Positions 2,770 to 17,330 are shown, numbered from the stretch's first letter. The stretch is 47,179 nt of DNA from Collinsella sp. An307 (GCF_002161805.1 NZ_NFIP01000012.1:1-47179); one strand, 5' to 3'. Notes: generated by a model not told the origin, from the letters alone. A program made the numbers and translations.

Positions 2770-4884
2770 GTGGACGAGGTTTTGGCTGCGAAGGGGACTG
2801 CGCCGACGCGGCTGCCGGAGCTGCTAGCGCCCGCGGGCTCTGCCGAGGCGCTGCTCGCCGCCATCGCTGCCGGGGCAGATGCCGTGTACACCGGCCTCGC
2901 CGAGCCCGGACTCGATGCGCGTGCCGCAGCCCCCGGACTCACCTGGGAGGAACTCGAGCGTGCCTGCGCCTACGGCGCGGCGCATGGCGTCTTGGTATAC
3001 GTGACGCTGAATGCGCTCGTGCGCTCGGGCGAGGAGGGCCGCGTTCTTGCTGCGGCGCGCCGGGCACAGGACGCGGGGGCCTCCGCCCTCATCGTTGCGG
3101 ACCTCGGCCTTGCGCGCCTGCTCGCTGAGGAGCTCCCCGGCATGGAGCTCCACCTTTCTACGCAGGCGGGGGCCCAGGCGGCGCCGGCGGTCGCCTTTGC
3201 CGCGCGCGAGCTTGGCTGCGCGCGCGTCACGGTTGCGCGCGAGCTCTCGGTAGCAGAGATTGTCGACATCGTCTCCACGGGCGTTGCGTGCGAGGTGTTC
3301 TGCCACGGCGCGATCTGCATTAGCTATTCGGGGGCGTGCTCGCTTTCCGCCGCGGCACGCGGGCGCTCGGCGATGCGGGGCGATTGCACCCAGCCTTGCC
3401 GGCAATCATGGCGCCTCGTCGACGGTGCGGGGGAGGACTGCGCGCAGGCCGCGGGAGACAAGCTTCTCTGCCCCAAGGACTTTCTGGGCCTCAGGATGCT
3501 ACCCGAGCTCATCCGCGCTGGTGTCTCCGCCCTCAAGATCGAGGGGCGCATGAAGAACCCCGATTACGTCTTCAACGTGGTGGGCGCCTACCACGCGGCG
3601 CTCGATGCGCTCGCCGCGGGGGAGCCGTTTGACGCAGACGCCCTTGTGCGGCGCGCGGGTACCTCGTTCAACCGCGGATTCACCGACGTCTATCTGCGCG
3701 GCGACGCCGCAGGGACGGGCCGCGACCTTATGAGTTTCGAGCGCTCCTGCAACCAGGGTATCGAGGTGGGCGTAGTCGTCGCGCGCGCCCGCCATGAGGT
3801 GACCGTTGAGCTCACGGGTCCCGTGCGCCCGGGCGACACGCTCGAGATCCATACGATTCTTCCGGCGGACGCCGGCGCGGGCGTGCCGCGTCGCTTCCCG
3901 CTCATCCCCTGTACGGTTTCCGGCGAGCCGAGTGAGCGCGTCACGCTGCGCTGCAAGCGGCGCGTGGAGGTGGGAAGCGCCGTCTTCCTTACGGCGAGCG
4001 CCGCGGTGCTCGAGGCATCCGCGCGTGCCGTCGATGCGCTGCGGGGCGAGGTCCTAGGCGCTGCCTCCTGTGCAGCGGGCGACGGACCGCGCCGCCTGCC
4101 GCCCCGTGCCGGCGAGCCGCCGCTTGCTACCTCGCCAGAAAACGGAATCCCTCCCCGTGCCGGGGCGGACCCGGCGCAATCATGTGAAGTGCTCGGCGCC
4201 CCCGTTTCAAGCCCGGTGTTTGTCGCAAGCCCCGACGCGGCGTCGTCACTGCTAGCTGCGAGTGCCGCCGAGGTCGCGGTCGAGGCCTGGCGCCTTCTGG
4301 ATGACGCGCACGCGTGGGAGCCGCTGCTGCCACGCCTGACGGTGCTGCTCGATGCGTGCTGCCGCGCGTCTGACCTCTCGCGCACCCGCCGCCTTATGAG
4401 CACCGCTCGGCGGGTCATCTGCCGGAACCTCACGCAGCTCGCCCTCGCCCGTGAAGCAGGCGTTGCCTTCGACGCCGCTGCGCCGCTCTATGCGGAGAAC
4501 CCCGCAGCGGTTCGGACGCTTCAGTCGTGGGGAGCCAAGCGCGTCTGGCTGCCCGACGAGCTGCCGGCCGATGATGCACGCCGTCTCGGGGAAACGATGT
4601 CCGCGGTACCGCTCGGCACGCTTGCGCCTGGCGAGCGCGAGCTCATGGTTATGGAACATTGCATCCTTACGGCCGAGGGGCCGTGCGACCACCGGTGCGC
4701 CGCGTGCGGCCGCCGCCGCGAGCCGCGTTTTCTTTTGGGAAAGAACGGAGACCGCTTTGCCGTGCGCACCGATGCACTCGGCCGCTCGCGCGTGCTTTCC
4801 TGCAGCGGTGACGCACCTCGGGTGGTATCCGCACGTTCGGCGTCGGACCCGTGCCCGCGAGGGGAGGACCGATGCAGCTGCTAG
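2770..4884 (+). CDS. Peptidase U32 family protein (RlhA/TrhP-like)
   Basis: A protein of 704 residues with the U32 signature. LPELLAPAGSAEALLAAI opens the TIM-like domain. A Cys-bearing block follows (EVFCHGAICISYSGACSLS, then GDCTQPCRQSW), and then the family motif ALKIEGRMKNPDYV. Members such as RlhA and TrhP are Fe-S proteins needed for hydroxylation of a base in 23S rRNA or tRNA, and others are annotated as collagenase-like proteases. The length and the FNRGFTDVYLRG segment favour the RlhA-like branch, but the substrate is an inference. A low-complexity linker around residues 440-475 repeats PPRAG. Start: GTG 2770 follows a GAGGGGAGGG site; an in-frame ATG at 2740 has none. Its last 13 nt overlap the next gene, indicating coupled translation. 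Confidence 0.85.
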   Translation: MDEVLAAKGTAPTRLPELLAPAGSAEALLAAIAAGADAVYTGLAEPGLDARAAAPGLTWEELERACAYGAAHGVLVYVTLNALVRSGEEGRVLAAARRAQDAGASALIVADLGLARLLAEELPGMELHLSTQAGAQAAPAVAFAARELGCARVTVARELSVAEIVDIVSTGVACEVFCHGAICISYSGACSLSAAARGRSAMRGDCTQPCRQSWRLVDGAGEDCAQAAGDKLLCPKDFLGLRMLPELIRAGVSALKIEGRMKNPDYVFNVVGAYHAALDALAAGEPFDADALVRRAGTSFNRGFTDVYLRGDAAGTGRDLMSFERSCNQGIEVGVVVARARHEVTVELTGPVRPGDTLEIHTILPADAGAGVPRRFPLIPCTVSGEPSERVTLRCKRRVEVGSAVFLTASAAVLEASARAVDALRGEVLGAASCAAGDGPRRLPPRAGEPPLATSPENGIPPRAGADPAQSCEVLGAPVSSPVFVASPDAASSLLAASAAEVAVEAWRLLDDAHAWEPLLPRLTVLLDACCRASDLSRTRRLMSTARRVICRNLTQLALAREAGVAFDAAAPLYAENPAAVRTLQSWGAKRVWLPDELPADDARRLGETMSAVPLGTLAPGERELMVMEHCILTAEGPCDHRCAACGRRREPRFLLGKNGDRFAVRTDALGRSRVLSCSGDAPRVVSARSASDPCPRGEDRCSC

Positions 4885-6488
4885 CCGCCCTTGCCGGGCC
4901 CCGGCGCGCGCTTTCCTCGCTCGCTCGGCGGATCGATCCCGAGACGGCGGTCGCTGCGGCCCTCGTCTGCCTGCTCGCCCTCGCCCTCGTGCCCATGGTC
5001 GCCATTTCCGCCTTTGATCATAGCTATGCGGACGATTGGCATTACGGCGTCGACGCGCATCTGGCGCTCGAGGCCGGCAGGGGCGTCGCAGGTGCCATCG
5101 CTGCGGCGGCTGCCGAGGTGGCCGATACGTTCTTCTCATGGCAGGGGACCTACTCGGCTATCTTTCTCATGGCCCTGCAACCCGGCGTGTGGAGTGAGGA
5201 GCTCTATGGCGTCGGTGCGGTCGCGATTATGGTGGCGCTCGTGGCCTCGACGTTCTTTGCGTCGTCGGTGCTCGTGCACGATGTGCTTGGCGGCGGGCGC
5301 TCAGCGGCCGTTGCCGCAGCGTCAGCCGCTCTTCTGCTGCAGACGCAGCTCATGCCCAGCCCCGTCGAGGGCATCTGGTGGTACAACGCCGCCATCTACT
5401 ACACCTTCTACCACGCGCTCATGCTCGCAGCGGTGGGGCTCGGTATCCGCTTGCTTCGCGGCGGCACCCGGGTGCGCACCTACACGCCTGTGGGAACGGC
5501 GTTGCGCTCCCTTCTTTTGGTTGCGCTTGCGTTTGGTATTGCGGGCGGGAACTTTGTGACCGCACTGGTTGCGGGCCTTCTGCTCGCCGCGGCCGTTGTG
5601 GCGGGGGTGCGCCGCGGCAATCGCCGGGGCTTTCTGCTCCTGCCGGCGCTTGCGGTCTTTGTGGCCGGGTTTGCCGCTTCGATGGCGGCACCGGGAAACG
5701 CCATCCGGCAGGAGACGCAGTTTGCGGGCGATGCGCTCGGCGTCGTGCCCACGCTTATCAAGAGCGGGCTTGCGGCGGGGGAGTACCTCGTCCTTTGGAC
5801 AAACGGCTTTCTGCTACTCATGCTAGCTCTCGTGCTGCCTTTGCTCGTTCGCGCGGCGCGCCGCTCGACGTGCTCGTTTCGTTATCCGGGTGCGGCGCTT
5901 ATGGGGTCGTTTGCCCTGTTTGCGGCGAGCTTCACCCCTACGTTCTACTCCATGGGCTACGTTGGCCCGGGGCGTGTGCAGAATATCCGCTACGACCTCT
6001 TTGTGATTCTTGTGCTGGTGTGCGCCACCTGGCTTGCGGGCTGGTGGATCCATCGGCGCGAGCAAGGCACAGGGGCGGGGGAGGCGTCCGATGGCGCGGA
6101 GGCGGCTCCGACAGAATCTCTCGCGCGCGCCGCGGCGACGCCGGTGTCCCTCGCATACGGACGCTTTGCCGCAGTGGTTCTTGTGGTGCTTGTGCTCTCG
6201 GTCACGGCCCTCGTCCTCGACGAACGCCATATCGACGACCTCGTCTCGCTCTCTGCCGCACGCTCGCTCGTGACAGGCGAGGCGGTTGAGTACGATGCGC
6301 AGATCCGGGAGCGTATCGAGCGCATCGAGGAGTCACCCGATGCGGAGGTGGAGGTTCCCTTCATCACGACGGCGCCCAAGGTGCTTTTTATGGGGGACAT
6401 CCGCGACAACATGGATACCTATATCAACTATCGCTTTGCGCAGTGGTGGAGCAAGGACGCGATAACGGGGTATCATGCAAGTCTCTAG
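4872..6488 (+). CDS. Polytopic membrane protein, DUF6056/GT-C-like
   Basis: A 538-residue protein with about ten hydrophobic segments. An early luminal-type loop holds ISAFDHSYADDWHYG, whose acidic pair after the first helix resembles the catalytic Asp position of GT-C glycosyltransferases and the DUF6056 family. The C-terminal 80 residues are soluble. A role in transferring sugars to a cell-surface polymer is possible but not shown. Start ATG 4872 has GAGGGGAGG at the right distance and overlaps the upstream U32 gene by 13 nt; an in-frame GTG at 4851 is less likely. tyrS follows after 84 nt and appears to have its own promoter. Confidence 0.7.
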   Translation: MQLLAALAGPRRALSSLARRIDPETAVAAALVCLLALALVPMVAISAFDHSYADDWHYGVDAHLALEAGRGVAGAIAAAAAEVADTFFSWQGTYSAIFLMALQPGVWSEELYGVGAVAIMVALVASTFFASSVLVHDVLGGGRSAAVAAASAALLLQTQLMPSPVEGIWWYNAAIYYTFYHALMLAAVGLGIRLLRGGTRVRTYTPVGTALRSLLLVALAFGIAGGNFVTALVAGLLLAAAVVAGVRRGNRRGFLLLPALAVFVAGFAASMAAPGNAIRQETQFAGDALGVVPTLIKSGLAAGEYLVLWTNGFLLLMLALVLPLLVRAARRSTCSFRYPGAALMGSFALFAASFTPTFYSMGYVGPGRVQNIRYDLFVILVLVCATWLAGWWIHRREQGTGAGEASDGAEAAPTESLARAAATPVSLAYGRFAAVVLVVLVLSVTALVLDERHIDDLVSLSAARSLVTGEAVEYDAQIRERIERIEESPDAEVEVPFITTAPKVLFMGDIRDNMDTYINYRFAQWWSKDAITGYHASL

Positions 6489-8092: not shown

Positions 8093-8494
8093 TTAGAGGT
8101 CGGCCTCCTTGCGGCACATGCCGTCGAGGATGGCGGCGATGAGCGCGAGCACGCCGACCACCGCTGCCATAACGGGGATCTCCTGACCCATGCCAGCGAA
8201 GACGCCCGTGGCAATGGCGAGCAGCAACACCAAGATGGCAATAAGGCGGTGGTTGCCGAGGCGGCTCGGCTGGTTGGCCCCGTGGATACCCATGACCGCG
8301 CAGAAGAAGGTGAGCACGGCGCAGACGAGGTAGAGCACACCGTCGAGGTAGACGACGAGCACGCCGAGGACGCCCGCCTCGGCCTCAGCAAGATCGGCGC
8401 CAAAGAGCGCGATGGCGCCCAGGGCAGCCGCACCAAGAGCGGCGAGAACTTGCAACAGGCTCACGATCTTGAGGGCTTTGCGGTTGGTGGACAT
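8093..8494 (-). CDS. Small four-helix membrane protein
   Basis: A 133-residue protein of unknown function with four predicted transmembrane helices (about residues 10-32, 44-70, 82-100 and 106-124) and a basic loop GIHGANQPSRLGNHR between helices 2 and 3. It has the same size and topology as the 14000-14407 product, including a similar F-x3-VMG motif at the end of helix 2, so the two may be distant paralogs. ATG 8494 has a perfect AAGGAGGT. Upstream lie a -10 (TATACT, minus strand 8593-8588) and a LysR-type palindrome at 8611-8631 that overlaps the -35 region. It is divergent from the solute-binding-protein gene. Confidence 0.75.
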   Translation of the reverse strand: MSTNRKALKIVSLLQVLAALGAAALGAIALFGADLAEAEAGVLGVLVVYLDGVLYLVCAVLTFFCAVMGIHGANQPSRLGNHRLIAILVLLLAIATGVFAGMGQEIPVMAAVVGVLALIAAILDGMCRKEADL

Positions 8495-8715: not shown

Positions 8716-9582
8716 ATGCAAGACATCACGAGGAGGGGCTTCGTCGGCCTTGCGCTCTCAAGTGCGGCGCTCACGGTCGGCGCCCTCGCCGGCTGCACCC
8801 CGAGCACGTCTCAGGCGGGCAGTGCCGGCAGCGCGACGTCGGCTACGGCGGTAGCAAGCACAGACACGCTGCGCGTTGGTGTGCGCGGCGACGTCGTGGG
8901 CTTTGGGTACCTGAATGAGAGGACCGGCAAGTACTACGGTCTTGAGGTGGACATCGCCGAGGAGCTCGCGAAGCGTCTGGGTTACCGGGACGTCGCCTAT
9001 ACGACGGTGCTGCCCGAGAACCGCAAGGAGCTGCTGCTCGAGGGCAAGATCGATGCGCTGGTGGCGTGCTACTCCATTGCCGACACGCGCCGGGAGAACT
9101 TCGACTTCTCGCCCGCCTATTACGACGACGCTGTGATCGCCGTCGTCCAGAACTCCAGTCAGATCACCACGATCGACGACCTCAAGGGCGCCACGTTCGG
9201 CACGATGGGCGGCGCCAACGCCGCGCCGCTGCTCTCCATCAAGCTCTACGAGATCGGCTTCTCGAACGGGGAGTCCGTCGAGACGAACGAGGACAACTCC
9301 AACGCGCTCTTCGACACATGGCGTCTTATCCAGTACCCCTCGTATCAGGAGCTCTCCGACGCGCTCGAGATCGGCGAGGTCGATGCCATGGTGCTCGACG
9401 GCGCCATCGCCAAGACCTATATGAACGACGAGCGCTCGGTGCTCGACGGCTTTACCGTCGACGAGGTTTCCTACGGCGTCGCCACCCAGAAGGGGTCGGC
9501 GCTCTCGCCGCGCGTTGCCGAGACCATCCAGGGCATGCTCGACGACGGCACGATCGACGCGCTCATCGATAAGTGGGACTAG
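8716..9582 (+). CDS. Amino-acid-type extracellular solute-binding lipoprotein (SBP family 3)
   Basis: A 288-residue lipoprotein. The signal peptide carries an RR pair (DITRRGFVGLALSS) and a lipobox LAGC, followed by a Ser/Ala linker. The mature part has the family 3 fold: GLEVDIAEELAKRLG, then GKIDALVACYSIADTRRENFDFSPAYY, then the second lobe with DDLKGATFGTMGG and a closing IDALIDKW. Proteins of this family bind polar amino acids or similar small ligands for ABC importers. Here no permease or ATPase follows; the next gene, 10 nt away, encodes an MscS channel with Cache-like sensor regions. The protein may therefore deliver or sense a ligand for that channel. Start ATG 8716 follows GGGGAGGAAGG. 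Confidence 0.85.
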   Translation: MQDITRRGFVGLALSSAALTVGALAGCTPSTSQAGSAGSATSATAVASTDTLRVGVRGDVVGFGYLNERTGKYYGLEVDIAEELAKRLGYRDVAYTTVLPENRKELLLEGKIDALVACYSIADTRRENFDFSPAYYDDAVIAVVQNSSQITTIDDLKGATFGTMGGANAAPLLSIKLYEIGFSNGESVETNEDNSNALFDTWRLIQYPSYQELSDALEIGEVDAMVLDGAIAKTYMNDERSVLDGFTVDEVSYGVATQKGSALSPRVAETIQGMLDDGTIDALIDKWD

Positions 9583-9592
9583 GGGGCAGAAG

Positions 9593-12500
9593 ATGAGAAT
9601 GTCCAAGGGACTCACCGTACGGATCGGCGTTCTTATCGCCGTTGTCCTTGCCAGCATGGTCGCCATGGGCGTGCTGCTCACCGGCATGCAGGGCCAACTT
9701 ACGCGCTCGAGCTATGCCGAGGAGATCGAGTACGAGGAGGCATCGCTGCCCGAGCTTCTCGAGCAGGCGGATGCCGAGACCGTGGAGAACACGGCCCAGT
9801 TCGACGCCATCTACCAATCGAAGGCGGCGAGCGTTGCCTTCATGGCGCAAAACGACGCCGGCTTTGAGGCGACCGATGCCAAGATGGCGGAGTACCGTGA
9901 GCTGCTCGCGGTCGACAACGTCATGGTCGTCACGCGCACGGGCGAGATCGTTGCGCGCGCGACCGACACCCCCGCCGACTTCACCCGCATGCGCTTCAAC
10001 CGTCTGCGCGACACCTTTGACACCAACGAGCCTTCCGAGGCGGTCGAGATCGAGTATCCGGAAGAGGAGTGGCTGGACCGCTACTACGCGGCGCGTATCG
10101 ATGACGAGACCATGGTCGTGATCGAGCAGAACCCCGCCGAGCTCCGCGACCTCGTGGAGAGCACGGGTTCGCTTGCGAGCGTGCTCGGTTCCATCTCGCT
10201 CGGCCAAGACGGCTACGTCTTTGCGGTCTCTGCCAAAGACTATGTGATCGAGTACCACCCCGACGAGGGCCTCGTGGGGGCCGATGCTATCGATGCTGGC
10301 CTCAGCGTGGAGAATCTCGAGGACGGCACCCTTGCGAACATGACGCTCGACGGCGAGGCGCTCTTCTGCGGCGTCACCAAGATCGGCGACATGTACTATA
10401 TCTCCGCCGTGCCCGAGGCCGACATGGCTGCTTCGAGCGCTATCACCGTGGGCGTCATCCTCTTTGCGTTCTTTGTCGTCATCGCTGCCGTGACGCTTTA
10501 CGGTATCTTCGTGCTGCGCGATGACGAGCGCCGCGGTCACCGCGATGAGGACTGCCGTCGTGTGGGGCCCGTGCGCCTGAACCGCGCGATCGCCGGCCGT
10601 GCGCTCGTGCTCGCAATCGTGGGCTTCCTCGGCATCCTCGTTATCTCGTTCTACATGCAGACGCTCTTTGCGCTCTCCTCGCAGTCGCTCACGCTCTCCG
10701 AGCGCGCCGAGTCCATCGCCGAGAGCATCGAGCGCAGCCAGGCGAGCGCCGCGGAACTCGAGGACCAGTACGGTGAGCGTTATCTCTCCAAGGCCGAGGT
10801 CGCGGCCTACATCATCGACCAGAACCCCGAGCTCGCCACGCGCGAGAAACTCGGCGAGCTGGCGGATGCGCTGCAGATCCAGTACATCTTTACCTTCAAC
10901 GACCAGGGCGTCATGACGGCGACCAACTCGAGCTACACTAACTTCGTGCTGTCCGAGGACCCCGCCGACCAGTCCTTCGAGTTCCGCAAGCTCCTGCAGG
11001 GCGTGGACCATGTGGTGCAAGACGCCATGCCCGACGAGATCTCCGGCGAGCTGCGCCAGTACATCGGTGTCACCACCCATGACGCCACCGGTCAGCTCAC
11101 GGGCTTTGTCCAGCTCGGCATTCGTCCCACGCGCTTGGAGAACCTGCTCGAGAGCGTGCAGATCGACCACGTGCTCGACGGCGTGCAGGTGGGAGCCGAT
11201 GGCTTTGCCTTTGCCGTCTCCAAGGTAGACGGCACCATCGCCTATTATCCCGACCAGAACACCACCGGCAAGGACGCCGCCGCCTGCGGCATCACCGAGA
11301 ACCAGCTGCGGGACGGCTTCAGCGACTACATCACGGTGAACGGCGATCGCTACTACGCGTCGGTCGCCGAGACGAGTGACTACTACGTGTTCGTCGTGGC
11401 AGGGGAGGGCGCGCTCATGAACGAGCGCGGGCCGCTCACCATCGCCACCGGGGCCATCGCGCTCGTGTGCCTCATCGTGGTGTTCGCCCTCATCTCCGTC
11501 GCGCCGTCCGGGCGCCCCGCCGCGCCGTCCGCTACATCGGACGGTGACGAGGACACCGGCGTCGTCGAGGTCAACATCGGTGGGCGTCGGGTACGCTCCG
11601 ACAGCGCCGTGAGCCGTTGGCTCGGCCGCTCGTTCGATTGGGACGGCCTCTCGCCCGAGCGCAAGGTCGGCTGCGTGCTGCGCTGGTTTGCCGCCGTCGC
11701 CGTGGTCGTGGTGTGCGGCGCGGTCATCTTCAAGGACAGCATCTTCGACAAGCGGTCGCTCTTCGCCTACATCCTGGGTGGCACGTGGGAGCACGGGCTC
11801 AACATCTTCGCTATCACGGCGAGCATCATGTTCGCCTGCGTGCTTGCCACGGTGGCCGCCGCGCTCCAGAAGATCCTGCAGTTCGTCTCGCGCGTGCTCG
11901 ACGCGCGCGGCGTGACCATGTGCCGCCTCATCTCGAGCGTGGTCAAGTACGCGAGCGTCATCGGTATGCTCTACTGGTGCTTAGCGCTCATCGGCGTGGA
12001 CACGGCCACGCTCCTCGCCTCGGCAGGACTGCTCACCTTTGCCGTCTCGCTCGGTGCGAAGGACATCGTGACCGATATCATCTCCGGCCTCTTCATCATC
12101 TTCGAGGGTGAGTTCCGTGTGGGCGACATCATCCAGGTCGGCGGCCAGCGCGGCACGGTCATGGAGATCGGCGTCCGCACGACCAAGATCAACGACGGCT
12201 CCGGCAACATTCTGGTGCTGCGCAACTCGAGCATCTCCAACGTGGTCAACATGACCAAGGAGCACAGCTACGCCGCCATCGAGGTGGGCATCGAGTACGG
12301 CGAGAGCCTGGAGCGCGTCGAGGCGATTCTCTCGCGCGAGCTCCCCGAGATGAAGAAGCGCCTGCCGGCCATCATCGAGGGCCCGTTCTACAAGGGCGTC
12401 TCCATGCTCGCGGACAACTCGGTCAACATCAAGATCGTGGCGGAGTGCGCCGAGAGCGACCGCGGCGGTCTTACGAGCGACCTTCTGCGCGAGATGAAGC

Positions 12501-12691
12501 TGCTCTTCGATGTGTATGACATCTCGATTCCCTATCCGCAGGTCGTGGTGAACCAGCCCATCGAGTTCAAGCGCGCGACCATGGCCGACCGCATTGCGGC
12601 GAAGGAGTTCAACGCCGAGCAGCGCGAGGCTCTGAAGGACCTGGCGGACGAGGACGAGGACTTCGACGAGTCCAACGATTCGCGCCGCTAA
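9593..12691 (+). CDS. Large MscS-family channel with two Cache-like sensor regions
   Basis: A protein of 1032 residues. TM1 (about 8-30) is followed by an extracellular region of some 250 residues with a dCache-like motif (LGQDGYVFAVS, then IEYHPDEGLVG). TM2 (about 283-306) and TM3 (about 337-360) flank a basic cytoplasmic loop. A second extracellular region of about 250 residues repeats the motif (VGADGFAFAVS, then IAYYPDQNTTG), and TM4 is about 613-636. The C-terminal third is a classic MscS module: two helices, then the Gly/Ala-rich pore helix LLASAGLLTFAVSLGAKDIV, the beta domain (GDIIQVGGQRGTVMEIGVRTT) and an acidic tail. The MscS family opens under membrane tension; a ligand-controlled version is inferred from the Cache-like regions. 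The start is ATG 9593 (or 9599), 10 nt after the solute-binding-protein stop. Confidence 0.85.
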   Translation: MRMSKGLTVRIGVLIAVVLASMVAMGVLLTGMQGQLTRSSYAEEIEYEEASLPELLEQADAETVENTAQFDAIYQSKAASVAFMAQNDAGFEATDAKMAEYRELLAVDNVMVVTRTGEIVARATDTPADFTRMRFNRLRDTFDTNEPSEAVEIEYPEEEWLDRYYAARIDDETMVVIEQNPAELRDLVESTGSLASVLGSISLGQDGYVFAVSAKDYVIEYHPDEGLVGADAIDAGLSVENLEDGTLANMTLDGEALFCGVTKIGDMYYISAVPEADMAASSAITVGVILFAFFVVIAAVTLYGIFVLRDDERRGHRDEDCRRVGPVRLNRAIAGRALVLAIVGFLGILVISFYMQTLFALSSQSLTLSERAESIAESIERSQASAAELEDQYGERYLSKAEVAAYIIDQNPELATREKLGELADALQIQYIFTFNDQGVMTATNSSYTNFVLSEDPADQSFEFRKLLQGVDHVVQDAMPDEISGELRQYIGVTTHDATGQLTGFVQLGIRPTRLENLLESVQIDHVLDGVQVGADGFAFAVSKVDGTIAYYPDQNTTGKDAAACGITENQLRDGFSDYITVNGDRYYASVAETSDYYVFVVAGEGALMNERGPLTIATGAIALVCLIVVFALISVAPSGRPAAPSATSDGDEDTGVVEVNIGGRRVRSDSAVSRWLGRSFDWDGLSPERKVGCVLRWFAAVAVVVVCGAVIFKDSIFDKRSLFAYILGGTWEHGLNIFAITASIMFACVLATVAAALQKILQFVSRVLDARGVTMCRLISSVVKYASVIGMLYWCLALIGVDTATLLASAGLLTFAVSLGAKDIVTDIISGLFIIFEGEFRVGDIIQVGGQRGTVMEIGVRTTKINDGSGNILVLRNSSISNVVNMTKEHSYAAIEVGIEYGESLERVEAILSRELPEMKKRLPAIIEGPFYKGVSMLADNSVNIKIVAECAESDRGGLTSDLLREMKLLFDVYDISIPYPQVVVNQPIEFKRATMADRIAAKEFNAEQREALKDLADEDEDFDESNDSRR

Positions 12692-12731: not shown

Positions 12732-12770
12732 AACCGGCCCGGGGACAGAGATGCCCTCGGGCCGGTTTTT
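12732..12770 (+). terminator. Terminator of the SBP-MscS operon
   Basis: A GC-rich stem of 10 bp plus 3 bp (AACCGGCCCG with CGGGCCGGTT, one bulge) is followed by T5. It lies 40 nt after the channel-gene stop and before the convergent LysR gene. Confidence 0.85.
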
Positions 12771-12814
12771 CATGACGGGCGCGTGCGACGCAGCCACCTC
12801 GGTTGAGGTGGCGT

Positions 12815-13999: not shown

Positions 14000-14407
14000 C
14001 TACTCGACGCCCTTCTCGAGCATAGCGCGGTAGGAGAAGATAAGGCCGGAGAGCGCCACCGCGGCGAAGATGAGGTTGGGCCAGATCTCGCCACCCTCGC
14101 CGGAGGTGAAGGTGAGGCCCACCACGGAGAGGTTCAGGATGATGTCGATGCCGCACATCCAAGAGAACGGCTTGAGCAGGTTCTCGTGCTTGGCGGCGCG
14201 CATGCCGACGACGCCGAAGATGAACTGGACGAGGCCGATGACAAAGAGGATGATGCCAAACATCTGGGCGATCTGAACGCCGTCCTCGATGTCGAGCTCG
14301 ACGCTCGGGGCGCCGAAGTACATGAGGGCGGCAGCGGCCATGGCGATGATGCCAAACAGCACAAAGACAAAGCCAATGCCCTGCACGCCGCGACAGTTCT
14401 TAGACAT
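14000..14407 (-). CDS. Small four-helix membrane protein (possible paralog)
   Basis: A 135-residue membrane protein of unknown function with four hydrophobic helices (about residues 10-30, 45-70, 82-102 and 108-127). An acidic loop (SVELDIEDGVQ) follows helix 1 and a basic one (GMRAAKHENLLK) follows helix 2. Size and layout match the 8093-8494 product. ATG 14407 is preceded by GAAAGGAACC. Its promoter is near consensus (TTGACA-N17-TATACT) with a LysR-type palindrome just upstream of the -35, a typical position for activation. It has its own terminator, so it is probably monocistronic. Confidence 0.75.
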   Translation of the reverse strand: MSKNCRGVQGIGFVFVLFGIIAMAAAALMYFGAPSVELDIEDGVQIAQMFGIILFVIGLVQFIFGVVGMRAAKHENLLKPFSWMCGIDIILNLSVVGLTFTSGEGGEIWPNLIFAAVALSGLIFSYRAMLEKGVE

Positions 14408-14691: not shown

Positions 14692-16029
14692 ATGGGCAAA
14701 TCCGAGAAATCGTCGATTGAGACCGCGATGCAGCAGGACGGCGCGCCGAGCGCTCCTGAGGTTCCCGCCGCCGAGCGCAAGATCCCGCTCATCGTGAAGG
14801 TCTACGGCTTTTTGTGCATGGCAGACGGCATCGTTACCGTGCCGATGGTCTTCCTGTTCCTTGGCATACTCTGGTGGGCCATGTCGGCGCGGCCCGACCT
14901 CATCTCGATCGGTAGCGATCCGACGCCGCCGATGATTCTCGTGGCAATCTCTATCGTGGTGTCGCTCGGCAACGGGATTGCACTTATCATCTTTGGCCAT
15001 TCGCTTCTTAAGAACCGCCGCCGTAACGCCGCGCGCTGGTCGCACGCGCTCATCGCCACCACGCTCGTCCAGATCATCCTGCGTATCATGCTCGAGGGTA
15101 TCGGCACCAACCTCATCGCCGACGCCATCCAGCTTGCGATTGTCCTTACCCTCTCCGTCACGGTTGATCCGCAGCTGCGCCACGAGCGCCATATGAAGCA
15201 GGTCATGCGCGACCTTACTGACCGCGAGGCGGCGCGCGCCGGCATGCTCGGCCGCGACCTCGAGGGCAAGGGCTACATCGAGCTCAACTTCTTCAACCTG
15301 TTCTGGGTCTTCACCGTCTGCTGCGTGCTCGGCCTCATTATCGAGACCATCTATCACATGGTCGTGGTCGACCCGGGCGTGTACCAAGACCGCGCGGGCA
15401 TGCTCTTCGGCCCGTTCTCGCCCATCTACGGTTTTGGCGCCGTGCTCATGACGGTCGCCCTGAACCGCTTCTACAAGGCTAACCCTGTCATCATCTTTGT
15501 GGTTTCCGCCGTGATCGGCGGCCTCTTTGAGGCGGCGGTCAGCTGGTTCATGCAGACCGGCTTTGGCGCGGTTGCCTGGGACTACTCCGGCTCCACCATC
15601 TTTGGGCTCTTCCCCGACCCGGTGGCGGTCATATTCCAGGGGCGCACCTCAACACTCTTTATGTGCATGTGGGGCGCGCTCGGGTTTGTGTGGATCAAGT
15701 TCTGCCTGCCGTGGCTTCTCAAGTTCATCAACATCATCCCCTGGAAGGTCCGCTACAGCTTCACCACGCTCTGCGCGATTCTTATGCTTGTGAACGGCGT
15801 CATGACGCTGCAGGCGCTCGACTGCTGGTTTGAGCGACTCTCGGGCACCGCGGGCACCACGCCCGTGGAGGAGTTCTACGCCAAGAACTTCGATAACGCC
15901 TACATGCAGCACCGCTTTGAGAGCATGACCATCACGCCCGAGAACTCCGGTCGTGTGGACAGCTCTGCCATGGCGGATGCCGTGGCAGAGCCCGCTGCCG
16001 CTGGCTCGTCTGAGGCGGGTGCGGCATGA
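14692..16029 (+). CDS. CmpB-type putative ABC-transporter membrane protein
   Basis: A 445-residue protein with about eight to nine hydrophobic segments. The second half carries the PF06541-like (ABC_trans_CmpB) pattern: FWVFTVCCVLGLIIETIYHM, FGPFSPIYGFGAVL, GGLFEAAVSWFMQ and WGALGFVWIKFCLP. Proteins with this domain are annotated as putative transporter permeases but their substrate is unknown and no ATPase lies nearby. The N-terminal half has a separate four-helix region ending in a charged stretch (RHERHMKQVMRDLTDREAAR). The Shine-Dalgarno (GAGGGA) is modest. The stop overlaps the next start as ATGA, so the lipase-like protein is translationally coupled. It ends in TGA, one of only four in the window. 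Confidence 0.75.
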   Translation: MGKSEKSSIETAMQQDGAPSAPEVPAAERKIPLIVKVYGFLCMADGIVTVPMVFLFLGILWWAMSARPDLISIGSDPTPPMILVAISIVVSLGNGIALIIFGHSLLKNRRRNAARWSHALIATTLVQIILRIMLEGIGTNLIADAIQLAIVLTLSVTVDPQLRHERHMKQVMRDLTDREAARAGMLGRDLEGKGYIELNFFNLFWVFTVCCVLGLIIETIYHMVVVDPGVYQDRAGMLFGPFSPIYGFGAVLMTVALNRFYKANPVIIFVVSAVIGGLFEAAVSWFMQTGFGAVAWDYSGSTIFGLFPDPVAVIFQGRTSTLFMCMWGALGFVWIKFCLPWLLKFINIIPWKVRYSFTTLCAILMLVNGVMTLQALDCWFERLSGTAGTTPVEEFYAKNFDNAYMQHRFESMTITPENSGRVDSSAMADAVAEPAAAGSSEAGAA

Positions 16030-17330
16030 CGGAGCGCAAGCGCCCGTGCTGGGGCCTGAGGATTCTTGCCGCGCTTGGCGTGGTGCTCGTCGCATGCGGC
16101 ATTGCGCTTGCCGTCGCGGTGCACCATCGCCAGGAGCAGGAGCGCTTGGGGCTCGGCGTGGTTTCCGAGCCCTCGGCGCCGCAGGAGCTCGCGGACTCGT
16201 CCGCGCGCACGGGCGCCTTCACCGCTGATATTGAGTTCACCACCATGGCAACAGGCGCTGCGACCGTCTCCACCGAGGTGGTGTGGGACGATGCATGGTT
16301 CTTCCAGGACCCCACGGTCTACAACCACGAGCTCGCCACCACCTGCGCGGTGCTCTCCGCCGTTGCCAATTCGGAGTCGGGCTACTATCAGGCCGGCTCC
16401 GGCGGTCGCGCCTACATGGAGGAGGCGCTTGCCGCGCTCGGGTTCGAGGACATCTCGACCGCATCCTACCAATACCGCAGCGAGATCTTTGACGAGATCG
16501 TCGATGCGCTAACCGGTACCGACGATGTCGTGGCCTACTCGGTGGCGACCAAGCGCCTCGTTGCGGAGGACGGGCGCGAGAAGACGCTCTTTCTTGTCTC
16601 CGTGCGCGGCAGCTACGGTTCCGAGTGGCTGAGCGACCTCAACATGGACTTCGACAAGAACTACGCCAACGTCGAGCACGAGGGCTTCATGCGCTCCGCC
16701 AACGAGATCGTGGAGGACCTTGCCGCGCGCATTACCGACGAGGCCGAGCTTGACGGCACCGATGACATCGCGCTGTTGTTCTGCGGCCACTCCCGCGGTG
16801 CCGCGACGGCAAACATCGCCGCCGCCTACGCCGACGAGATGACAACGAGTTTGCGCTCGTTCGCCCCGCTCGAGAGCATCTATTGCTATACCTTCGCCAC
16901 GCCCGAGGTGACGCTCTATGAAGATGTGGACGACCCGCTGTTCGATAACATCTTCAACATCCTGAACCCGAGTGACATGGTGCCGCGCATGCCGCTTGCA
17001 GCGTGGGGGTACGCGCGCTATGGCCACGACCTCATGCTCCCCGGTTATGGCGACGAGGGCTTTGACGCGGCGCATGAGGCGATGTGCGCGACGTTTAAGG
17101 AGAACACGGGGGTCGAGAGCCCCTATGTACCCGAGGACCGCGAGCGCGTCGACAAGCTGATTGCTGACCTTGCGCGCGAGGTGCCCACGGTAGACGATCT
17201 GTTCTCGCTGGGCGGCGTGGCGTCGCTCGTGCACGACCTTCTTGCCGACATCAACCCCATGCAGGTGCTCTACGGACACTATCCGAGCGTCTACATCGCC
17301 TGGATGCAATCGCTCGATACGCTGGAGTAG
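16026..17330 (+). CDS. Membrane-anchored lipase-like alpha/beta hydrolase (class 3 type)
   Basis: A 434-residue protein with an N-terminal membrane anchor (about residues 12-32, LAALGVVLVACGIALAV) and an extracellular domain. The nucleophile elbow GHSRG (about residue 257) follows LLFC, and ILNPSDMVPRMP supplies a plausible catalytic Asp region. A His in GHDLML or GHYPSVY could complete the triad. The pattern matches lipase class 3 proteins acting on acylglycerols or related esters; the actual substrate is unknown. It starts in an ATGA overlap with the CmpB-type gene, and the pair is probably controlled by the LysR site at 14555-14575. Confidence 0.75.
   Translation: MTERKRPCWGLRILAALGVVLVACGIALAVAVHHRQEQERLGLGVVSEPSAPQELADSSARTGAFTADIEFTTMATGAATVSTEVVWDDAWFFQDPTVYNHELATTCAVLSAVANSESGYYQAGSGGRAYMEEALAALGFEDISTASYQYRSEIFDEIVDALTGTDDVVAYSVATKRLVAEDGREKTLFLVSVRGSYGSEWLSDLNMDFDKNYANVEHEGFMRSANEIVEDLAARITDEAELDGTDDIALLFCGHSRGAATANIAAAYADEMTTSLRSFAPLESIYCYTFATPEVTLYEDVDDPLFDNIFNILNPSDMVPRMPLAAWGYARYGHDLMLPGYGDEGFDAAHEAMCATFKENTGVESPYVPEDRERVDKLIADLAREVPTVDDLFSLGGVASLVHDLLADINPMQVLYGHYPSVYIAWMQSLDTLE

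Follow-up and report, generated by a model that had tools for sequence, protein, structure and literature searches.

Why should a gene for a solute-binding protein (SBP), with the fold of proteins that serve uptake, lie immediately ahead of a gene for an MscS-type channel? The question is raised by a gene pair at positions 8716-12691 of a 47,179-nucleotide stretch of DNA, hereafter the window, which is one contig of the 2.2 Mb genome of Collinsella sp. An307, a member of the Coriobacteriia (GCF_002161805.1, NZ_NFIP01000012.1:1-47179). A preliminary description of this DNA had proposed that the pair forms a ligand-gated channel to which the lipoprotein presents an amino acid or a similar ligand. 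We favour, with a probability of roughly 0.6, a reading in which an acidic amino acid outside the cell is sensed by the lipoprotein, which acts through dCache domains of the channel protein and sets the gating of its MscS-type pore, so that the two proteins would be one functional unit. The evidence lies in the architecture of the channel, the near-obligatory pairing of the genes, the dCache folds of the ectodomains and a conserved amino acid pocket in the lipoprotein.

The first gene (8716-9582, plus strand) encodes a family 3 SBP lipoprotein of 288 residues (PF00497, SBP_bac_3, 5.9e-24). Its stop codon is separated by 10 nt from the start of the second gene (9593-12691, plus strand), which encodes a channel of 1032 residues with eight predicted transmembrane (TM) segments; relatives suggest that translation may instead begin at an ATG at position 9599. 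The coordinates and sizes in the preliminary description proved exact, and the terminator with which it closed the pair is real: a GC-rich stem-loop followed by U5 occupies 12732-12772 on the plus strand, and its hairpin (12732-12767) has a folding energy of -28.7 kcal/mol (z -4.5). A simple terminator scan gave no match there, the upper end of the stem being imperfect. No ATP-binding cassette (ABC) permease gene adjoins the pair, again as described earlier, and no BPD_transp_1 gene was found anywhere on the window contig. A search of the Pfam-scanned genes flanking the pair likewise returned no kinase domain.

The pairing extends well beyond a single genome. Among 396 Coriobacteriia genomes, with the channel counted at E<=1e-40 and the lipoprotein at E<=1e-45, the channel has matches in 64 genomes, a count that takes in a number of remote relatives as well as hits to plain MscS, and the lipoprotein is present in 54. 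In a sample of 396 genomes of the phylum the channel was not found outside the order. Reading about 10-19 kb around the channel loci gave 45 intact channels from four Coriobacteriia families, approximately 50-89% identical to that of the window. In all 45 a lipoprotein homologue immediately precedes the channel gene, at a distance of mostly 6-25 nt. None of the 45 neighbourhoods matches the amino acid ABC permease query, an outcome in favour of the preliminary description, whose proposal would have been weakened by ABC permease genes usually standing beside the lipoprotein gene in relatives. Retention of the pair in all 45 goes beyond chance, and since the outer neighbours differ between families, the pairing is not mere synteny. 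From the side of the lipoprotein, all but two of the genomes that carry it have it adjoining a channel. In G041, which gave no channel match, the lipoprotein gene is truncated and contains a stop codon, and the G376 sequence is a partial gene at the edge of a contig. Where the channel is truncated at L114/L033, the lipoprotein has been lost. Lipoprotein and channel are gained and lost together, and their pairing is near-obligatory, with one counter-example (G045); a coupling of the two is thus well supported.

Pairwise distances between the SBPs correlate with those between the two ectodomains (r 0.83 and 0.84) more closely than with those between the pores (r 0.71). The SBP tracks the ectodomains better than the pore, a difference that is suggestive only, the pore being also the more conserved part. 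An apparent fusion of SBP and channel at L072, a 1288-residue open frame, was rejected as an artefact, as the two reading frames differ and the SBP has a gene of its own. The pair is in decay at L086, L114, L117, L118 and L124, where SBP genes are interrupted by stops, channel genes are truncated or split, or a shortened SBP gene has no channel. Distant tandem-ectodomain MscS channels with no SBP adjoining occur in Coriobacteriia at L063, L064, L066 and L069.

Hydropathy places the eight TM segments of the channel at residues 11-29, 284-302, 337-355, 616-634, 695-713, 738-756, 783-801 and 804-822, in the order TM1-ectodomain-TM2, TM3-ectodomain-TM4, one additional helix and lastly the three helices of MscS. 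This layout places the two ectodomains outside the cell, with the cytoplasmic domain of MscS on the inner side. The sensor region is a product of tandem duplication, its halves sharing 26% identity over 300 residues (E 1e-19), and both motifs by which the preliminary description had recognized two similar sensors (GYVFAVS...EYHPDEGLVG and GFAFAVS...AYYPDQNTTG) are present. Its assignment of an MscS channel to the C-terminus holds as well: PF00924 (MS_channel_2nd) matches at 2.7e-16 and the NCBIfam MscS model at 8e-39, and MscS entries of the PDB match at 1e-34 to 1e-21, the best at 2.3e-34 over residues 775-987. The channel core spans residues ~734-988 (11792-12556, plus strand) and has both the TM3-beta domain sequence and the C-terminal cytoplasmic domain that define the MscS family. 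The An307 genome also encodes a separate, ordinary MscS in a 301-residue frame. The fused channel is therefore not the sole safety valve of the cell and is probably specialised.

Both ectodomains match the dCache fold, a double PAS-like module after a long N-terminal helix, the second by Pfam as well as by predicted structure. This outcome favours the preliminary description, whose proposal would have weakened had these regions not folded as Cache domains. The first ectodomain comprises residues 34-284 (9692-10444, plus strand) and the second residues ~358-612 (10664-11428, plus strand). Pfam dCache_1 matches the second at 2.2e-7, with a score in the window protein of 33.5 bits, below the curated cut-off of 45, and it matches 11 of 12 relatives (E<=0.01), the best at 7.8e-13. 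Searching the PDB with sequence profiles of the ectodomains returned nothing meaningful, the best hit being an unrelated protein at 0.011, so that a comparison of structures was needed. An AlphaFold2 model of the full-length channel, built from nine sequences, has a mean predicted local distance difference test score (pLDDT) of 55.6, with the ectodomains mostly at 65-87; modelled alone, the second ectodomain reaches a mean of 72. Compared with dCache chemoreceptors, the modelled first ectodomain resembles the tandem Cache of PscC (Z 14.6 over 208 residues, root-mean-square deviation (rmsd) 8.0), Mlp24 (Z 13.6) and PctA (Z 13.5). For the second, Foldseek returned Mlp37 (3.5e-11) and PctA (3.2e-10), and superposition on Mlp24 (VIA) gave Z 11.8 over 222 residues, with single lobes at Z 14 and 2.6 Å. 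The angle between the lobes is unreliable in these models, given an rmsd of 7-8 Å over both lobes against 2.6-3.4 Å for each lobe singly.

The lipoprotein begins with a twin-arginine-like ITRRGF and carries a lipobox L-A-G-C at residues 24-27 (8785-8796, plus strand), whose cysteine, C27, is present in all 48 aligned relatives. Its closest solved structure is Campylobacter PEB1a (2v25, 'major cell-binding factor'), an Asp/Glu-binding protein. Residues R57, R103, S120, R125, Y210 and D228 are invariant in the 48 sequences; among them are the hallmarks of SBP_bac_3, the arginine for the alpha-carboxyl group (R125) and the aspartate for the alpha-amino group (D228) of the ligand. By alignment and spacing, R103, S120, R125, Y210 and D228 correspond to Arg147, Ser164, Arg169, Trp232 and Asp250 of GlnH, which contact the bound aspartate (PMC6069109). 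R57 aligns with a lysine of PEB1a, and the tyrosine at 210, a tryptophan in GlnH, is a tyrosine in PEB1a as well. Altogether six of the seven residues of the PEB1a/GlnH Asp/Glu pocket are kept, with Cys118 in place of a threonine. Specific to this lipoprotein family is an insert of ~15 residues near 182-204. These residues suggest that the ligand is likely an acidic amino acid and possibly an analogue of one. They lend support to the amino acid ligand of the preliminary description, in which docking on the channel and opening by the ligand stay at the level of inference.

The genome of An307 holds a paralogue of the lipoprotein (L071:3808-6951, minus strand) that is 33% identical and has the same pocket, with the threonine. 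It is followed by two BPD permease genes and then by a cytidylate-kinase-like gene, with no ATPase gene directly after. A separate uptake SBP of this type is therefore present in the same genome.

How does the pair compare with systems already described? MscS, MscK, YbiO, MscCG and bCNG belong to a common pore family, some members of which carry large additional N-terminal domains, and bCNG channels are MscS relatives gated by cyclic nucleotides. The channel of the pair shares this pore; we know of no family member with Cache ectodomains or an SBP partner. In the open-licence papers searched we found neither a Cache domain joined to an MscS channel nor an SBP that acts together with one, which is weak evidence of absence. 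The closest known system is GlnH-GlnX-PknG of Actinobacteria, proposed to serve transmembrane signalling and not import (PMC6069109, PMC9769921). As in the present pair, a family 3 SBP lipoprotein of the acidic amino acid type is encoded together with a membrane partner in which two extracytoplasmic domains are set among four TM helices. The ectodomains of GlnX, however, are four-helix bundles, whereas those described here match dCache, and the output of GlnH-GlnX is the kinase PknG, whereas here an MscS pore is fused in the same chain and the terminator closes the pair. LuxP-LuxQ is the paradigm of trans action by a solute-binding protein on an ectodomain of PAS/Cache type; it differs in SBP family and ligand, in its histidine kinase output and in having a single ectodomain. 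The prokaryotic glutamate receptors, such as GluR0, couple a family 3 SBP fold to an ion channel (PMC2950845). GluR0 carries its SBP in cis, as a fusion with a potassium-channel-like pore, unlike the separate lipoprotein gene and MscS pore found here. Tandem dCache_1 domains also occur in the alpha2delta subunits of calcium channels (PMC9901441), which are separate animal subunits of an unrelated channel and have no SBP. In part of the text of the 2016 Cache survey, ion channels appear only through the alpha2delta subunit class (PMC4822843). The modules are thus known, and their combination of SBP, dCache and MscS in this layout is absent from GlnH-GlnX-PknG, LuxP-LuxQ and GluR0.

We propose the following mechanism. 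The lipid-anchored lipoprotein would capture extracytoplasmic aspartate or glutamate, or an analogue much like them, and close on it. We infer that the liganded form would then dock on the dCache region, in the way in which LuxP binds LuxQ and GlnH has been proposed to bind GlnX. The resulting change would pass through the four TM helices of the sensors to the MscS helices and the pore, where it would either set the tension threshold or open the pore outright; the effect could be of either sign. If like MscS, the channel would be a heptamer, each subunit bearing two dCache ectodomains on four extra TM helices. The pore may still be triggered chiefly by tension and no more than tuned by the ligand. 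A bolder version is given slightly less than even odds: a two-component ligand-gated channel, conserved in part of the Coriobacteriia, whose MscS pore would open or close, by way of the tandem dCache domains, when a separate lipoprotein binds an external amino acid, in logic a bacterial counterpart of glutamate receptors.

The surroundings of the pair offer further hints. Upstream lie a gene for a class I W/Y-type tRNA synthetase and one for a small four-TM protein, divergent to the pair (8093-8494, minus strand); downstream are a LysR gene and a second member of the same small family (14000-14407, minus strand). This family, for which no Pfam match above cut-off was found, is close to the channel in 13 of the 19 genomes of the bacterial family that carry the channel, frequently on either side of it, at one to five copies per genome (further members are L063:6555-7001, L079:6214-6612 and L104:5969-6403), and it is a possible channel accessory. 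An AqpZ-like gene adjoins 5 of the 45 pairs, divergently, in genera of two families (AqpZ-like loci: L028:4193-4906, minus strand; L075, L090, L092, L115, L116; and L068:10164-10919, minus strand). At L068, which holds a distant homologue, the AqpZ-like gene is co-directional with the channel, with TetR upstream and GGDEF downstream. The single MIP gene of An307 is on a contig other than the window. We also considered an ABC_trans_CmpB gene (14692-16029, plus strand) as an ABC partner and rejected it, since the terminator and two genes on the opposite strand separate it from the pair and its family is not one of amino acid permeases; it overlaps a class 3 lipase-like gene (16026-17330, plus strand) by 4 nt. 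A predicted gene at 4872-6488 (plus strand, 538 residues) has no Pfam or NCBIfam match and is apparently kept in relatives, with a gene of the same length at L026 and L034.

Several readings compete with a lipoprotein that gates the channel through dCache domains. MscS-type channels are established glutamate exporters, as shown for MscCG (PMC6110860) and for an MscS of Bacillus methanolicus (PMC12541555), which by analogy points to glutamate efflux. The channel could then be a valve with feedback that exports glutamate or aspartate, the lipoprotein reading the outside level and closing or opening it. The acidic amino acid pocket fits such a valve, but no single gene family stands beside all pairs and none scanned there is one of glutamate synthesis or export, and we consider this reading unlikely. 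The aquaporin beside some of the pairs points to osmotic control, an idea compatible with glutamate efflux. In that case the lipoprotein would mainly signal outside solute or nutrient status to an osmotic channel, within a wider osmoregulation locus that includes the aquaporin and the small four-TM protein. The recurrence of that small family and the independent AqpZ-like gene at L068 agree with this, yet the aquaporin adjoins few of the pairs and is missing from the window, and the explanation, which largely overlaps the one we favour, seems rather unlikely as a separate account. Some orphan SBPs are known to work with permeases encoded far away, and the lipoprotein, with an uptake fold and pocket, might serve an ABC transporter encoded elsewhere and be co-transcribed with the channel by accident. 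Linkage in 45 of 45 cases despite changing outer neighbours, near-perfect co-occurrence, and a paralogue that already adjoins permeases make this very improbable.

There are also points that weigh against a gating role for the lipoprotein. Distant relatives of the channel (25-34% identity) combine tandem ectodomains and MscS with no adjacent SBP. The SBP pairing is thus one branch of a wider tandem-ectodomain MscS family, and a channel of this type needs no SBP in principle. In G045 (L086) the lipoprotein frame is broken by two stops and the channel is intact. Cys118 occupies the position of GlnH Thr162, a contact of the ligand side chain, so that the exact ligand may differ. The pore scores a pLDDT of ~30-35 in the full-length model, too poor to judge pore coupling or gating. 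That relatives without an SBP keep their tandem ectodomains, and that dCache domains usually bind ligands directly, would also suit an arrangement in which the ectodomains themselves recognize a ligand, while the lipoprotein either just enriches or hands over that ligand or provides a separate second input. The dCache_1AA ligand motif, around R-x-W-Y and D, is not apparent by eye in the second ectodomain, where Q460, S461 and Y/F462 stand at the R, W and Y positions and D481 is mostly kept, and such an arrangement appears quite improbable. On balance we retain the reading of lipoprotein and channel as one functional unit.

MscS channels are textbook tension valves. If the proposed role of the lipoprotein is true, bacteria also gate MscS-type channels by nutrients and not by membrane stretch alone, and ion channels would join transport, kinases and chemotaxis as outputs of separate bacterial SBPs. 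The conserved sub-family described here offers a clean test of a Cache ectodomain driving a pore, in a host group, the gut-associated Coriobacteria, that includes common gut bacteria.

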